From contig NZ_CANTJS010000001.1 in assembly GCF_947654275.1 (NCBI RefSeq), positions 62,001-126,000 on the forward strand: a stretch of 64,000 bases of DNA. The letters are read 5' to 3'. Positions 23,597 through 29,300 of this stretch are shown piece by piece. Under the pieces are notes generated by a model, which saw only the letters and a program-made list of their open reading frames with translations, was not told where the DNA came from and searched no databases. This DNA is from an uncultured Oscillibacter sp. (GTDB lineage: Bacteria > Bacillota > Clostridia > Oscillospirales > Oscillospiraceae). The translations under genes were made by a program, and so were the position numbers. Numbering within the stretch: position 1 is the first letter of the stretch; each line of letters begins with the position of its first letter.

Positions 23597-25435
23597 ATGT
23601 GCGGAATCATCGGATTCGTGGGCCGGGAACAGGCGGCCCCTATCCTGCTGGAGGGCCTGCGGCAGATGGAATACCGGGGCTATGACTCTGCCGGTGTGGC
23701 GGTGCGGTCCCGGGAAAAGGGCCTGCAGGTCCGCAAGTCCAAGGGCCGGCTCCAGGTCCTGGCGGACCTGACCCGCGGCGGCGCAGAGCTGGAGGGCTGT
23801 CTGGGCATTGGACACACCCGCTGGGCCACCCACGGCGAGCCCAACGACGTCAACGCCCACCCCCATGTCAGCTCCGACGGGCGGATTGCCCTGGTCCACA
23901 ACGGCATCATCGAAAACTATCTGGAAATCAAGGAGCAGCTTCTGAACCACGGCGTTGTCTTTACCTCCGACACGGATACGGAGGTGGTGGCCCAGCTGCT
24001 GGAATTCCATTACAAGGAGTGCGGCAGCATGCTGGAGGCCGTGGGCCGGGTGCTGCGGCGCATCGAGGGCAGCTATGCCTTCGGCATCATCTGCGCCGAC
24101 TATCCCAACGCCCTCATCGCCGCCCGGAAGGACAGTCCCCTGATCCTGGGCTTCGGTGAAAACGGAAACTTCATCGCCTCGGACGTGACGGCCATCCTCC
24201 GCCACACCCGGGACGTGGTCTACATGAGCGACGGGGAAATCGCCGTCCTGACGGCGGACAGCGCGGATGTGTTCAACCACGAGATGGACCCCGTGGTGAA
24301 GGAGCACAGTCATGTGGACTGGGACGCGGCGGCGGCGGAAAAGGGCGGCTATCCTCACTTCATGTTCAAGGAGATTCTGGAACAGCCCGACGCCATACAG
24401 AAGACCATCGCCCCCCGCATCCGGGAGGGCCGGGTGGTGCCGGACGGCTTCTGCCTCACGGCGGAAGAAGCAAAAAATATCTCTCACATCTACATGATTG
24501 CCTGCGGCTCCGCCTATCATGCGGGCATCGTGGGCAAATACGTCTGGGAACGTCTGCTGCGCCGCCCGGTGGAGGTGGCTCTGGCCTCTGAATTCCGGTA
24601 CAGTCAGCCTCTGGTGGACAGCCGCACCCTGGTCATCGCCATCAGCCAGTCCGGCGAGACTCTGGACACCATGGCCGCCCTGAGAGAGGCCAAGCGGCTG
24701 GGGGGCCGGACTCTGGCGGTGTGCAACGTGGTGGGCAGCTCCATCGCCCGGGAGGCGGACCATGTGCTCTACACCTGGGCCGGGCCGGAAATCGCCGTGG
24801 CCACCAGCAAGGGTTATTCCACTCAGCTGGCGGCCCTGGACCTGATTGGCCTGTATCTGGCGGACCTGCTGGGCACCATCTCCCCCGCCGAATACGGGGA
24901 CATTCTGACGGAGCTCCAGCGCCTGCCGGACAAAATGCGGCAGTATCTCACGGACTACGCCGGCACCCAGTATTTTGCCTCACGCTATTTCAATCATGAC
25001 TCCATTTTCTTCATCGGCCGGAACCTGGACTACGCCATGGGGCTGGAGGGCTCCCTCAAGCTCAAGGAAATCAGCTACATCCATTCGGAGGCCTACGCCT
25101 CCGGCGAGCTCAAGCACGGAACCATCTCCCTGATTGAGCCCGGCACGCTGGTGGTGGCCCTGGGCACCCACGCCGCCCTCTTTGACAAGGCCATGAGCAA
25201 TGTGGTGGAGGTCAAGGCCCGTGGGGCCGAGGTGCTGGCGGTGACCACCGAGCCCCATCGGGAGCGGATGGCCAAAACCGCCGATGCGGTTCTCTCTGTG
25301 CCGGAGACTCATCCCCTGCTTCAGCCGTCCCTGGGCATCGTGCCCCTCCAGCTGTTCGCCTATTACGTGGCCCTGCAAAGAGGCTGTGACATCGACAAGC
25401 CCAGGAACCTGGCAAAGTCGGTGACGGTGGAATAA
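23597..25435 (+). CDS. glmS: Glutamine-fructose-6-phosphate aminotransferase
   Basis: GlmS makes glucosamine 6-phosphate from fructose 6-phosphate and glutamine, the first step to cell-wall amino sugars. The 612-residue protein begins MCGIIGFVG, with Cys2 as the glutaminase nucleophile after Met removal. HTRWATHG and HNGIIENY follow. Two SIS domains come next (IACGSAYHAG, ISQSGETLDT, YIHSEAYASGELKHG), and the C-terminus is KSVTVE. The ATG at 23597 has AGGAGG 12 bases upstream; upstream in-frame sequence is ribozyme. Confidence 0.97.
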   Translation: MCGIIGFVGREQAAPILLEGLRQMEYRGYDSAGVAVRSREKGLQVRKSKGRLQVLADLTRGGAELEGCLGIGHTRWATHGEPNDVNAHPHVSSDGRIALVHNGIIENYLEIKEQLLNHGVVFTSDTDTEVVAQLLEFHYKECGSMLEAVGRVLRRIEGSYAFGIICADYPNALIAARKDSPLILGFGENGNFIASDVTAILRHTRDVVYMSDGEIAVLTADSADVFNHEMDPVVKEHSHVDWDAAAAEKGGYPHFMFKEILEQPDAIQKTIAPRIREGRVVPDGFCLTAEEAKNISHIYMIACGSAYHAGIVGKYVWERLLRRPVEVALASEFRYSQPLVDSRTLVIAISQSGETLDTMAALREAKRLGGRTLAVCNVVGSSIAREADHVLYTWAGPEIAVATSKGYSTQLAALDLIGLYLADLLGTISPAEYGDILTELQRLPDKMRQYLTDYAGTQYFASRYFNHDSIFFIGRNLDYAMGLEGSLKLKEISYIHSEAYASGELKHGTISLIEPGTLVVALGTHAALFDKAMSNVVEVKARGAEVLAVTTEPHRERMAKTADAVLSVPETHPLLQPSLGIVPLQLFAYYVALQRGCDIDKPRNLAKSVTVE

Positions 25436-25446
25436 TTTTGCTGACA

Positions 25447-25484
25447 AAACCGCCGCTGTCCACACGGGACAGCGGCGGTTTTTC
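25447..25484 (+). terminator. glmS terminator
   Basis: The stem AAACCGCCGCTGTC / GACAGCGGCGGTTT followed by TTTCTT, 12 bases after the stop. Confidence 0.92.
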
Positions 25485-25579
25485 TTGCGGCGCCTGTCGA
25501 AAGCTGTTATACTGTAGGGCGCGGCCTCTGTGCCGCGCCGGTTTCTTTGACGGCAAAAAAGGAAGCGGCGCGGAAGCCC

Positions 25580-25607
25580 TTGACAAAGCGGCTCAAATCG
25601 GTATAAT
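25580..25607 (+). promoter_or_regulatory. Promoter of putative antisense RNA, unit 1
   Basis: TTGACA (25580-25585), 16-base spacer, TATAAT (25602-25607): both hexamers perfect. It points towards the 3' end of the small peptide gene on the other strand. Confidence 0.85.
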
Positions 25608-25613
25608 GAAAAC

Positions 25614-25702
25614 AGAAGGGCGCTGCTGTACGGCGGTCGTCCCATGCCAGCTAAACTAAGCTAGCCGTTCGGGAGCCATCCGGACGGCTAGCACGCTTTT
25701 GT
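25614..25702 (+). ncRNA. Putative antisense antitoxin RNA, unit 1
   Basis: The predicted transcript starts near 25614 and runs through the inverted repeat 25660-25692 to the TTTT near 25700. It would be complementary to the 3' untranslated region and last codons of the 28-residue peptide mRNA. The 5' end AACAGAAGGGCGCTG is identical in unit 2. Both ends are inferred from promoter and hairpin positions only. Confidence 0.5.
25660..25692. terminator. Inverted repeat containing the peptide stop codon, unit 1
   Basis: GCTAGCCGT pairs with ACGGCTAGC around a CGGGAGCCATCCGG-type loop. The TAG stop of the small peptide lies in the right arm. In unit 2 the same hairpin is GTTGACCGT / ACGGTCAAC, so both arms changed together. 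It probably ends one or both convergent transcripts. Confidence 0.7.
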
Positions 25703-25774
25703 GGTAAGTATCAGCGCCGCTCCGATGAAAAACACCAGAAACCGCACTACGGTGATGAACCGCTTCTTCCACAT
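25688..25774 (-). CDS. 28-residue hydrophobic peptide, putative type I toxin, unit 1
   Basis: The ATG at 25774 follows GGGGAGGTGGTGCGG, a strong ribosome site. The peptide begins MWKKR, continues with a hydrophobic stretch (RFLVFFIGAALIL) long enough to cross a membrane, and ends LTTKAC before TAG. The positive N-terminus and single membrane segment are as in known type I toxins, but the sequence matches no family I recognise. It has its own promoter (25875-25880/25851-25856) and faces the antisense promoter at 25580. A paralogue of the same length lies at 26043-26129, sharing about 17 of 28 residues, with several codons changed synonymously. Toxicity is inferred. Confidence 0.7.
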   Translation of the reverse strand: MWKKRFITVVRFLVFFIGAALILTTKAC

Positions 25775-25850
25775 CCGCACCACCTCCCCCCGATTGGTAT
25801 TTGCCTGGGAGAAAATGGGCCAACCGCCACTATACAGCAACGCTGATTTG

Positions 25851-25880
25851 ATTCTATCACGCTGTGTCGCTTTTTGTCAA
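25851..25880 (-). promoter_or_regulatory. Promoter of small peptide, unit 1
   Basis: Minus-strand TTGACA (25880-25875), 18-base spacer, TAGAAT (25856-25851). The leader to the ATG is about 70 bases. Confidence 0.75.
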
Positions 25881-25928
25881 TTCCGCCGCTTCCTTTGGTG
25901 TCGAAAAAAGGAACCGGCGCGGAAGCCC

Positions 25929-25956
25929 TTGACAAAACGGCTCAAATCGGTATAAT
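25929..25956 (+). promoter_or_regulatory. Promoter of putative antisense RNA, unit 2
   Basis: TTGACA (25929-25934), 16-base spacer, TATAAT (25951-25956). The flanking bases are almost identical to unit 1 (GGCTCAAATCGG spacer, AACAGAAGGGCGCTG start). Confidence 0.85.
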
Positions 25957-25962
25957 GAAAAC

Positions 25963-26055
25963 AGAAGGGCGCTGTCACAAGACGGTCAGCCCTCCACGCT
26001 AGTCAAACATCAAAGTTGACCGTTCGGGGGACAGCCGGACGGTCAACACGCTTTT
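25963..26055 (+). ncRNA. Putative antisense antitoxin RNA, unit 2
   Basis: The inferred transcript runs from about 25963 through the hairpin 26015-26047 to the TTTT near 26054, antisense to the 3' end of the second peptide gene. The layout is the same as unit 1. Ends are predicted. Confidence 0.5.
26015..26047. terminator. Inverted repeat containing the peptide stop codon, unit 2
   Basis: GTTGACCGT / ACGGTCAAC flank a CGGGGGACAGCCGG loop; the TGA stop of the peptide lies in the right arm. It is the covarying counterpart of 25660-25692. Confidence 0.7.
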
Positions 26056-26129
26056 GTGGTAAGGACGTACAGCGCAATGGCTGTACACACCAGGAACCGA
26101 AAAACCTGGCAAATCCTCTTTTTCCACAT
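26043..26129 (-). CDS. 28-residue hydrophobic peptide, putative type I toxin, unit 2
   Basis: A second peptide of exactly 28 residues with the same start (MWKKR), RFLV core and LTTKAC end. Its middle is different (CTAIALYV). The ribosome site GGGGAGGTGGTGCGG is the same. The last 17 coding bases before the final codon (CTTACCACAAAAGCGTG) are identical to unit 1. Upstream of the ribosome site the sequence no longer matches unit 1, and I see no good promoter in the hairpin-rich stretch 26150-26350. This copy may be silent or driven from elsewhere. Confidence 0.68.
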   Translation of the reverse strand: MWKKRICQVFRFLVCTAIALYVLTTKAC

Positions 26130-26149
26130 CCGCACCACCTCCCCCTCGC

Positions 26150-26351
26150 CGTCGCGTGCTCCATATCACTTGCCCCGGCCTATGGGCCGGGGCTCGCTCA
26201 TTCCGCCGCTCCGGCTCTCCCTCCGCAAACGCTACGCTGGTTTGCGGAGGGGAAAGCAAAAAGAGCCGCCCGCCTTTCGGCGGGCGGAAGCAAAAAGAGG
26301 GGGGGATTCCTCCCCCGGTGAAACAGGACCCGCCCCAATGGGGCGGGTCCT
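26150..26351. repeat. Hairpin-rich intergenic stretch
   Basis: No gene was seen. There are four GC hairpins: CCCCGGCC/GGCCGGGG near 26173-26192, CCTCCGCAAAC/GTTTGCGGAGG near 26221, CCGCCCGCC/GGCGGGCGG near 26263-26287, and AGGACCCGCCCC/GGGGCGGGTCCT at 26325-26351. GCAAAAAGAG occurs twice between them. The last hairpin is the first structure after the SLH gene stop and may act as its terminator. Confidence 0.6.
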
Positions 26352-26387
26352 TTGCCGGATACACGAATCAAATGGAGTCAGGGGAAA

Positions 26388-29300
26388 TCAGCTAACCGGA
26401 TCCGCGTGCTCCGCAATCGCGGTGATGGAGAACGCGCCGGTGATGCCCTCAGCGGTCAGGTCGCCAGCAGTCAGAACGATGTTCCAAACGGCGGCAACTG
26501 CTTCCTCAGCAGGAGTCACAACGATCTTGTAGTAGGTGGGCTGCTCGACCTTCGCCCAAGTGGCTTCCTCAATCAGACCGCTGGCAGTCTCATCAGCCGC
26601 AAGGAGTTCCTCCTCAGTTTTTCCTTCAGCAAGCTTCTTAACGTTGGTAGCCTGGTCGAATTCGTCCTTAGTCTCGAAGGTCACTTTCTTCCAAGCGCCG
26701 CTACCATTATTGAGTGTAGCGTCCCACTGATAGAAATCGGGATTCTCCACAGCCGCAACATAGGTAGCCTCGGCAAAGTTGGTGGAGTCGGTGAAGTCGA
26801 AGTCCTCAGCGGTGGCGTCCTTGCCGTCAGCCAGCTTGTAGAGCTTACCGCCCTCAGCAGCGGTCTTGGCCGCATTGAATGCGGCCTCGTCGTTGAAGGG
26901 ACCGACAGCGGTGTAGGTGTTGACCGCATCAACAGCGGCGCTGCCCTCGGTGACCTTCACCAGACGGCCATTGGCCTTGGTGCACGCAAACACCACGGGA
27001 TCGCCGGCGGCACGGGCGGCAGCCTCAGGTGTCACAGTGACGTCGATCTGCTTGGTATCGAAGTCATAGACACCCTCATGTCCAGCGGCCTCAGTCAGAG
27101 CAATCTTGACAGCGGGATCAGAGGGGGTATCCTTGTGAACAGGGGGATACTCGACGTTGCCGATTGTCAGGTTCTTACCGTCCAGATCGTCCTTCACAGA
27201 AGGATCCAGAGGCTGGCCGGGCGCGGGAACGGGAATGGTCTCGTCAACAATGGGAACATCGGGAACGGTGGTGACACTGTTCGCCATCTCGGTGATGATG
27301 ACCAGGGAGACGTTGCGGAAAGCGTCCTTGGTAGAATCATCGTTGTAGATGAACTGGATGACGGGATACTTGGGGCCTCCGTCCGCCGGGGCGCGCTCAA
27401 CGAAGTCCTTCAGATCGCCCACGGAGTTGATGCCGTTGCGGGTCAGGTCCAGCCACTCGGCGTCAGCCATGCGGACCACGTGGGTCTCGTCACCGATACC
27501 CAGGCTGGCGGACAGGTTGAAGGCGATGTTGGTCTGATTGACAGCATAGTCGGTCAGCTTGACCAGGTGCTTGTCGGCGTTGACAACGGAATACACCTTC
27601 GCCTCGTTGACAGAAGTGGTCTTCTTCACGGAGGTGTGCTCACGCAGGGTGTAGAAGGGCTCGAAGCCTTCGCGGGTGGCGGCGCTGTAGCTGGCGAAAT
27701 CGCCCACGTCCAGTTCCTTGTCGGAATAGATGAATTCCTTATCCTTCAGGCCGTCGGGAGTCATCATGGCCACAGTGTAGCCATAGATCTTCTTGCCGGT
27801 GGAATCGACCTCATAGGAGCCGTCCCAGTCGCGGATGTACAGCAGGTTGGTGCTGATAGCCTGGTTGGACTCGCGCTTGATGACAACAGCCTCGACCTCG
27901 CCGTCGTCATTCAGGCAGAGCTGAGCGGGGTTGTAGTTAGCGGAGTTCCACTTGTAGGTCAGGTCGGCGTTGGACGCGTTCTGGACGCCGCTGAGAACCT
28001 CAATGGAGTCCACTTCGCTGCCGTCGTCGTTGAAGGACACATAGATGAACTTCACGCCCTTGGCAGTGTAAGGCTTCTCGACAGGATTCGCGCCAACCTG
28101 ATAGGCGATGCGGTTGTTGCTGGCCTTGATCTCATAGGGTGCATTGGTGGCGCTATCAGTACCGGTGTACACGTCAGTGACGCCCCGGGTAACGTCCTCG
28201 ACTGTTTCAAGCCCGCTGACCAGCTTCCAGTCGGCGGAGCCGGTGACACCCTTGTTGGTGTACTTCACCAGGTCGCCGGGCTTCATGCTGCTGGTATATT
28301 CAGTATTGGTGCCCAGGTTCAGCTCCAGCAGGTTGCCCTTGATGTCCCAGCCCTCGACAATGGTGACATTGCGGCGGTCGATGGTGCTGGTGAAGTAGCC
28401 CTTAATCACGAAGTAGTCGGAGGTATCGCCCACGTTCTTGGCACGCAGAGCGTTGCCGGCCTTGTCCAGATACAGCTTGACGTCCTCGCGGGTAACCTTG
28501 ATGTCGTCAGCATTGATCTCAACCAGGTCCTTGTTCCACAGAGACACCTTGTAAGCGGTGCCGCCCACGGTGACCTCAACGGCCTGGCGGGTAGCGTTGC
28601 TGTTGCCGTAGGTCTTGACGCGGGTCAGCTTGCCTTCCACGGTCTCGGGGGTGTAGGCGTCGTAGACCTCGAACTCCGTGCCGTTGTCGGTGGTGACGGG
28701 AACCACGGCCACAAGATCGCCGGCCTTCAGGCCCTTCAGGAACTCGTAGTTGGCGTTGTCGCTCTCAACATCCTCGACATCCTCGAAGATAGGCGCCTGG
28801 TTATAGCCGGACTCGGCCTTGGCGGTCTTGTTGTCGGGCTTGATAACGTCCAGAGTCACGGAGTCGGCGCCCACGCGCTTGACCTCCATCAGCTGAGTCT
28901 TGACCACCACGACGTCGGTGATGTAGTCGGCGGTATCCTCGGAGACATAGACCTCCACCACGGTGCCGTTGTCGGTGTAGTCGGCGATGTCGCCGACCTT
29001 CTCGCCGCCGAAGGGAGTGCTGGTCTCGCCGTTGACATGCAGCTCCGTGCTGCCGTCCACCTTATAGCCGTTCAGCCCCAGAGCGCGGACCTTGGTGGCG
29101 TCGCTGACGCCAGTGACATCGTGCTCCATCTGCTCGGTATAGGTGAAGTCAGCCTCGACGGGATAGGTGCCGATGGTGACCTTCTTGTAGCTCCACTCGT
29201 TGGAGGGACGGCCGAAATCGTCCTCGGTGCTGCGCTCCTGCTTCATGCGCAGGTCAACGAAGTGCTCTTCACCGAACTCAACGGTGTACCAGTTGTCCTT

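Follow-up and report, generated by a model that had tools for sequence, protein, structure and literature searches.

A tandem pair of 28-residue peptide units in an uncultured Oscillibacter points to a large, probable type I toxin-antitoxin family of gut Clostridia with predicted leader-tail pairing in its mRNA

The window, a stretch of 64,000 nucleotides from the genome of an uncultured Oscillibacter sp., contains two minus-strand ORFs that each encode a peptide of 28 residues. The ORF of unit 1 (25688..25774, MWKKRFITVVRFLVFFIGAALILTTKAC, stop codon TAG) was identified by reading the frame and from homologues; the ORF of unit 2 (26043..26129, MWKKRICQVFRFLVCTAIALYVLTTKAC, stop codon TGA) was identified by reading the frame. 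The ribosome-binding site of unit 1, GGGGGGAGGTGGTGCGG, is located at 25775..25791 on the minus strand and is conserved in an alignment of 73 units; that of unit 2, taken from the sequence, is located at 26130..26145 on the same strand. The same 16-base stretch precedes both ORFs, and the repeats are 349-355 bases apart. The initial annotation of this DNA had described two minus-strand peptides of exactly 28 residues behind an identical ribosome site, in units of about 350 bases, and this description holds (ORFs 25774-25688 and 26129-26043). Its claim that a perfect TTGACA-16-TATAAT promoter converges on each peptide gene was borne out by a promoter scan, which placed these antisense promoters, of sigma-70 type, on the plus strand at 25580..25607 for unit 1 and at 25929..25956 for unit 2. 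Seven promoter-like sites were found in 3 kb, compared to a mean of 0.6 in shuffled sequence.

From promoter and terminator, the antisense RNA of unit 1 is predicted to be about 90 nt long (25614..25703, plus strand). Its 5' leader, placed at 25614..25645 on the plus strand from the position of the -10 element, is the complement of the mRNA tail arm. The stop codon of the peptide ORF sits within a hairpin. In unit 1 this hairpin (25660..25692) resembles, on the plus strand, the terminator at the end of an antisense RNA and is followed by ACGCTTTTGT. In unit 2 the corresponding hairpin was read at 26015..26047 as a candidate antisense terminator, and the antisense RNA would span 25963..26058 on the plus strand, again judging from promoter and terminator. 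A pattern for the stop-codon hairpin, derived from the homologues and both window units, had two matches in the window and none in 100 shuffles.

The sense promoter of unit 1, TTGACA-18-TAGAAT with a TG before the -10 (11/12 matches), was found by the promoter scan at 25851..25880 on the minus strand. Folding and alignment place the leader arm that is predicted to pair with the mRNA tail at 25815..25844, also on the minus strand, and an inverted copy of the unit 1 leader is present in the region of the window units. At the place where the sense promoter and leader of unit 2 are expected (26146..26210, minus strand), neither is recognisable, and a 9-bp palindrome is seen there by eye. The best match to a sense promoter in the scan upstream of unit 2 was 7/12, and no leader copy was found upstream of it (score 17; shuffled median 20). 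The search for a sense-mRNA terminator beyond the antisense promoter yielded none for unit 1 and a weak 6-bp candidate for unit 2. The initial annotation had proposed a tandem pair of putative type I toxin-antitoxin units. Of the two, unit 1 alone looks complete from its sequence, and as unit 2 has no recognisable sense promoter and leader, the pair would comprise one complete unit and one that is probably silent or a source of antisense RNA only.

The two window ORFs differ by about 10 synonymous and 20 nonsynonymous changes. The synonymous differences from which the initial annotation argued for selection on the peptide are therefore real, but they are fewer than the nonsynonymous ones. Selection itself was upheld across the family, where dN/dS ranged from 0.45 to 0.53 by pair set, indicating purifying selection on the peptide ORF.

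A tblastn search of 300 genomes of the family gave matches at E<=1 in 43, the window's own genome included. Twelve of the matching places were fetched, and 11 real homologues were read in five other genomes, with one to four copies each. Each is 28 aa long and ends in Ala-Cys. One candidate, L045, was rejected as a homologue on reading of the fetched locus, and the remaining tblastn places, which were left unread, are mostly partial matches within longer frames. With the DNA pattern of the hairpin, matching stretches numbered at least 118 in named genomes, whereas IMG/VR contigs contributed 44; among the matches listed (80 of the at least 118), most are from Oscillospiraceae or its genera, and a few from others, e.g., Acutalibacter and Anaerotruncus. 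Carriers with a species-level title include Flavonifractor sp. An306 (L106) and Colidextribacter sp. OB.20 (L142). A scan that took in loci L046 onward and the window assembled a family of 163 distinct units (127 genome loci, 34 viral contigs from IMG/VR, and 2 in the window). Because the DNA pattern demands GCGTGY followed by T and purines, the Ala-Cys-then-stop ending and the purine/pyrimidine pattern of the hairpin are fixed by construction in these 163 units; the Ala-Cys ending is, however, also universal in the 11 homologues found by peptide, independently of the pattern. Homologues with a conserved frame and similar length, a search for which had been proposed across Clostridia, were recovered in both sets.

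A peptide was called in 137 of the 163 units; the other 26 gave none by the peptide rule. The length is 27-33 aa in 118 of the 137 peptides, most commonly 28 or 31, and 104 end in KAC (47 PKAC, 27 TKAC, 18 IKAC), the ending by which we refer to the units. A 17-residue window at a Kyte-Doolittle score of at least 1.6 is present in 116 of the 118 peptides that are 26-33 aa long and have the expected ending, in agreement with the membrane-type character originally assigned to the peptide, and the median charge of the N-terminal 12 residues in these 118 is +3.

For two to four representative KAC peptides per database, Pfam, NCBIfam, PHROGs, and PADLOC returned no family at cut-off, and the PDB returned no match for representative peptides. 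An Rfam search of positions 25400-26400 of the window at E<=5 listed only matches below the gathering score; an Rfam search of 20 chosen loci gave two tRNAs and nothing else. No peptide match was obtained by tblastn at E<=1 in PLSDB plasmids or INPHARED phages. A peptide profile searched against 394 genomes of the order matched at E<=0.5 in 194, mostly over short stretches inside long frames; among the 29 profile loci fetched, L048, L049, and L074 carry the hairpin pattern, and in L046 and L047, the top two profile matches outside the window's genome, the strict pattern is absent. Among the papers listed in literature searches (at most 20 per listing), judged by titles and abstract starts and with T1TAdb records outside the scope, none describes the peptide family. 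The initial annotation had recognised no described toxin family in these peptides, and the searches agree; from sequence comparison, the KAC peptides constitute a new, so far unnamed peptide family.

Promoters and terminators were counted in 131 units. The antisense promoter matches the consensus at 10 or more of 12 positions in all 131 and is perfect in 117, with 1 of 131 shuffled controls reaching 10. The sense promoter reaches at least 10/12 in 113 units, with 4 of 131 controls doing so. Whether a convergent promoter is always present had been raised as a check; at this threshold it is in these 131, and by eye it is kept in 10 of the 11 tblastn homologues, though the eleventh, L035, has lost its -10 element. 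In that locus (G030:C102) the antisense TATAAT is gone, and extra sequence lies between the leader and the ribosome site. Past the antisense promoter, 90 of the 131 units have an intrinsic terminator of the sense mRNA, compared to 15 in shuffles, and its stem-loop spans the antisense -35 element in 76. In the other 41 units, window unit 1 among them, this terminator was not found, so the mRNA may not always carry the tail. The T-run that lies 3' of the stop-codon hairpin on the antisense strand is the complement of the conserved Thr/Pro-Lys codons. A further antisense-strand terminator was found just upstream of the sense -35 element in 82 of the 131 units (19 in shuffles); a longer antisense RNA spanning the whole unit may thus exist.

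The sense leader, GGCGCTGTTACATAA..GGCGGTTAGCC, recurs in inverted orientation downstream of the ORF, where it forms the start of the antisense RNA. The leader and its inverted copy were compared in 132 units (the 136 with the expected ending, minus four short of flank), and the median local score was 37, compared to 20 for shuffled sequence. With the leader repeated inverted downstream of the ORF, the tail of a full-length mRNA can pair with its own leader. We folded the mRNAs of the 103 units with both promoters at 10/12 or better and a leader of 20-130 nt. The median number of expected leader-tail pairs was 26, against 5.4 with shuffled tails, and at least eight such pairs were expected in 102 of the 103 mRNAs but in only 33 of 103 controls. 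For window unit 1 the values are 21.5 with its own tail and 0.37 with a shuffled one. In a set of 92 non-redundant units, the own tail was better than the mean of the tails from the five closest relatives in 77 when relatives were chosen by ORF, and in 75 when they were chosen by tail. These leader-tail results are independent of the DNA search pattern.

An alignment (A2) of 73 units, from which 19 of the 92 had been left out by hand (divergent ones and second copies), was used to assess conservation of the pairing. The leader-tail helices are 84, 93, and 98% paired. The whole structure is 92.4% paired, with 23 of 38 pairs changed on both sides, although the units share ancestry and these counts are not independent events; its covariation is 0.269, compared to 0.177 in shuffled alignments (reached in 0/500) and at most 0.109 when the structure was slid along the alignment. 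RNAalifold recovered the two inner leader-tail helices unaided. The inner pairs of the stop hairpin at columns 303 and 304 are often unpaired.

If leader identity or copying at the DNA level alone maintained the repeats, G-U and A-C departures from pairing would be equally common. In the 73 units, the inner leader-tail helices contain 128 G-U and 14 A-C cells; the outermost leader helix has no G-U bias (35 G-U, 46 A-C), and all leader-tail helices together contain 163 and 60. When all 92 units were aligned, the inner 17 pairs had 171 G-U and 18 A-C cells, and all 25 pairs had 219 and 85. Counted over every position of the pairwise leader alignments (92 units), the bias is weaker, with 203 G-U-type and 90 A-C-type departures. 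The prevalence of G-U over A-C in the inner helices places the pairing in the sense mRNA, and the inner leader-tail pairing is most likely under selection there, with the reservation that the sequences share ancestry. As far as comparison of sequences can tell, the 5' and 3' ends of the mRNA appear to be joined by folding.

A further helix in the RNAalifold output joins the region of the start codon to the C-terminal codons. This start-codon helix is 97% paired, and its covariation is 0.275, compared to 0.147 in shuffles (0/500) and at most 0.073 when slid; two weaker measures do not stand clear of the shuffles (double-change pairs 42/500, pair types 11/500). The helix connects MW...TTKAC with MG...APKAC peptides, so the peptide ends owe some of their conservation to the RNA. 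The W/G pair of the start-codon helix (GC 34, UA 31) possibly reflects one or few events. We had expected the Shine-Dalgarno sequence to open on removal of the tail, and this was not found in the 103 folded mRNAs: the predicted accessibility is about 0.2 either way, and folding alone is therefore no proof that the tail controls ribosome access.

The initial annotation had likened the units to txpA/RatA and bsrG/SR4 of Bacillus subtilis, in which, as in the KAC units, a small membrane-type peptide is combined with an antisense RNA over the 3' end of the mRNA. This layout fits the family, given the convergent promoter at 10/12 or better in 131 of 131 units and the predicted 3' overlap. In excerpts of PMC4147584 the overlap is given as about 75 nt in txpA and about 120 nt in bsrG; in the KAC units it is a prediction that depends on the mRNA passing the antisense start, beyond which window unit 1 has no terminator that we could find. 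Three differences, drawn from the KAC side alone, are that the KAC stop codon lies in the antisense terminator hairpin, that the 5' part of the antisense RNA repeats the leader, and that the mRNA terminator often encloses the antisense -35. The KAC profile is unrelated to the BsrG peptide, the one toxin with which it was compared (hhalign, one column, E 0.76). For bsrG, a figure legend in PMC6562991 names a helix P1 formed by 5'-3' complementarity, and in our leader-tail duplex test the bsrG sequence of the SPBc2 record gave z values of -3.1 and -5.0 for two tail lengths. As bsrG of SPBc2 is also leader-tail complementary, this clamp may predate the KAC family.

In hok/sok, the full-length mRNA is closed by pairing of its 5' and 3' ends. 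Closure of this kind is a likeness of hok/sok and aapA/IsoA to the KAC units, in which the conserved 5'-3' pairing in the sense mRNA is found; unlike in those systems, the KAC antisense RNA covers the tail and includes a leader copy. Hairpins that mask the Shine-Dalgarno sequence, another likeness, are noted for aapA3 in the excerpted text of PMC6733600. The Fst system of par_pAD1, as outlined in excerpts of PMC4147584, has convergent genes, a short peptide, and repeated elements; its direct repeats give complementary RNAs, whereas the KAC repeats are inverted. Type I systems of C. difficile (CD2517.1-RCd8, CD2907.1-RCd9, and others) are described in excerpts of PMC6563280 as convergent genes for small membrane proteins, some of them in prophages, with toxins of 34-59 aa and a charged C-terminus; the leader-tail design of the KAC units is not described for these systems in the same excerpts.

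On the strength of layout and comparative evidence (frame conservation, both promoters, the hairpins, and leader-tail and start-codon pairing in the sense RNA), we consider it likely that the KAC units are type I toxin-antitoxin modules, and a TxpA/BsrG layout with a hok-like 5'-3' clamp is, with good probability, the best reading of them. The toxin mRNA would encode a membrane peptide of about 27-33 codons and extend past the antisense promoter; the modelled mRNA, cut just beyond that promoter, has a median length of 305 nt in the homologues. With the leader paired to its own tail, the start codon to the last codons, and the Shine-Dalgarno region mostly paired in the prediction, the full-length mRNA would be closed. 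The strong convergent promoter would produce an antisense RNA of about 90-100 nt that is complementary to the tail and the stop-codon hairpin, and its binding to the tail would lead to duplex cleavage by RNase III, keep the mRNA shut, or both. Over its first ~30 nt the antisense RNA nearly duplicates the leader, which would put the two in competition for the same tail. If the antisense RNA ran short, or if the mRNA were trimmed at its 3' end, the leader would be released and the peptide could be made. Transcription, toxicity, the role of RNase III, and release by trimming are the parts of this model that we infer, and the label "toxin" for the peptide is to be read in the same way.

Other readings were weighed against the type I module. 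A benign or signalling peptide under antisense control, rather than a toxin, is conceivable since short membrane peptides can have other roles, but we judge it unlikely: the near-consensus antisense promoter, perfect in 117 of 131 units, fits a product that must stay off, as do the multi-layer closure of the mRNA and the hydrophobic, N-terminally basic peptide. Control as in Fst/par, in which the stop-codon hairpin terminates transcription from both sides, the mRNA included, and the RNAs meet via leader elements, would account for the convergent genes around the hairpin, the leader element repeated at both ends, and the failure to find another terminator near window unit 1. We regard it as very unlikely, however, because the inverted repeats make the two leaders alike and not complementary, the T-run of the hairpin is placed for antisense transcription, 90 of 131 units have another terminator past the antisense promoter, and the leader pairs with the tail.

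The units could also be a MITE-like mobile repeat, with the two promoter-leader ends as its terminal inverted repeats and an incidental ORF. Promoter and leader do form near-mirror copies, the repeats are multi-copy (at least 11 matches in some genomes) with scattered contexts, a close relative has no unit at the corresponding site, and near-identical copies occur: the tandem pairs of L171 and L187 have the same peptide, and two places in G568 score alike. Against this, many copies are diverged (e.g., four G030 peptides in one genome), dN/dS of the ORF is near 0.5, and the inner-helix differences between leaders are biased to G-U in the sense RNA, unlike what copying of a repeat at the DNA level would give; this explanation thus seems highly improbable. 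Still less credence goes to a regulatory leader peptide or attenuator, in which translation of the short ORF governs the stop-codon hairpin and hence a downstream gene. Aligned units have the stop codon within the hairpin, a feature for which the search pattern itself selected, and the C-terminus of the peptide is nearly fixed; yet no constant downstream gene exists, the 172 ORFs flanking 86 units falling into 149 clusters in mixed orientations with no fixed neighbour, the convergent promoter is better conserved than the sense promoter, and it is the antisense strand that carries the T-run of the hairpin.

A covariance model of the 3' module, trained on KAC units, had matches in 91 of 300 genomes of the family and 47 of 341 of the class (E<=1e-3), and in 6 of 249 phylum-level genomes (E<=1e-4), the window's genome being counted in each; candidates scored per genome, among the matches listed, were 11 for the family, 9 for the class, and 13 for the phylum. 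We fetched 80 of the places, mostly lower-scoring ones, and a peptide was called in 68. The leader-tail z was below -2 in 70 of the 80, compared to 90 of 92 in the KAC set. Of the 68 peptide-bearing units, 63 scored better with their own tail than the mean over the five tails most similar to it, and the sense promoter reached 10/12 in 36. Among the peptides on this RNA chassis are KAx relatives (MWKYLIKVFVSIIIFFIIVTTKAI), which hhalign aligns to the KAC profile at E 2e-5, and MVTYSDLF...KKK peptides unrelated to the KAC profile, one of which matches a PHROG holin (6.6e-4); further ones are the MPITITLHIFGYTVTIRIKGRNRHPGR types and short ...ITIKK types. Several of these peptide types matched no named family above cut-off.

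We compared antisense leaders between types, using 31 of the 92 KAC leaders. Within the window's family, these scored 29.6 against other KAC leaders, 28.5 against the NRHPGR type, and 25.0 against the MVT type; against KAx units outside the family the score was 16.6 (shuffled 12.4). The type labels are crude in this comparison, two NRHPGR-type peptides having fallen in the MVT group, and the matches compared had been picked by a model trained on KAC units. The idea that the chassis follows the host lineage and not the peptide was dropped as not uniform: MVT leaders inside and outside the family score 25.1 against each other, and MVT and KAC leaders inside it 25.0.

In the window's own genome, no third copy was found by peptide search or by promoter pattern with up to three mismatches. 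The covariance model gave a third, weaker match there (L257, G000:C56:13152-13287, E 1.6e-8), which has an antisense promoter, leader, and hairpin but no ORF by the peptide rule. It adjoins a small ORF that reads like a ribbon-helix-helix protein and is possibly a decayed unit of the NRHPGR type.

The RNA chassis is probably shared with other, partly unrelated peptides in Clostridia, to judge from these matches. A bolder reading, to which we assign somewhat less than an even chance, is that one chassis serves as the exchangeable controller of several unrelated toxic peptides, with a cis and a trans leader of near-identical sequence competing for a single tail. Its parts would be the leader, the stop-codon hairpin, the leader-complementary tail, the leader-mimic antisense RNA, and the mRNA terminator round the antisense promoter, and its peptides the KAC/KAx, the holin- or BsrG-like MVTY...KKK, the amphipathic M(P/R)ITxHI...NRHPGR, and the ...ITIKK mini-peptides, all held as tentatively as the reading itself. 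Type I modules are hard to find because their peptides are below annotation size and diverge fast; the conserved RNA, through its covariance model, brings such genes within reach of searches in gut Clostridia genomes and IMG/VR contigs, where they would otherwise stay hidden. A further use of the leader-mimic design is as a concrete test, accessible to mutation, of a cis clamp and a trans antisense RNA that share one target.

Same-strand repeats of units were found at nine loci (L144, L156, L158, L171, L179, L187, L189, L191, and the window). The spacing is 330-383 bases in seven of the nine, the window included, which makes tandem pairs a recurrent arrangement. A mechanical ORF of at least 90 aa covers 11 of 86 units. 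Some units (L199, L210, and L216 from IMG/VR; L078, L235, L091, L119, and L186) lie beside ORFs read as phage tail proteins or a lysin-type amidase; these neighbour readings suggest that prophages carry units close to their late region.

In the closest of 51 genomes of the same genus (97% at a gene read as glmS), no KAC unit is present at the same intergenic site. There the site runs to a gene read as an S-layer-type protein and carries a different array of convergent small-peptide genes. This locus (L238, G682), the counterpart of window positions 25435-26388, has an unrelated convergent array with a TTG-started MSITTSFLVSLAAGVVCYYLCKWLDRHTKGS, a repeated hairpin of the CCCCCGGAGAG...CTCTCCGGGGG type and, by eye, a TATAAT promoter directed against it. 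Pfam gave nothing above cut-off for the array peptide. Type I cassettes may be exchanged for one another at this site. The flank shared by the window (25500-25520) and L238 ends in a promoter-like CTGTCGAAA..TGTTATACTGTAG, which precedes an MSITTS ORF in the relative and the KAC units in the window.
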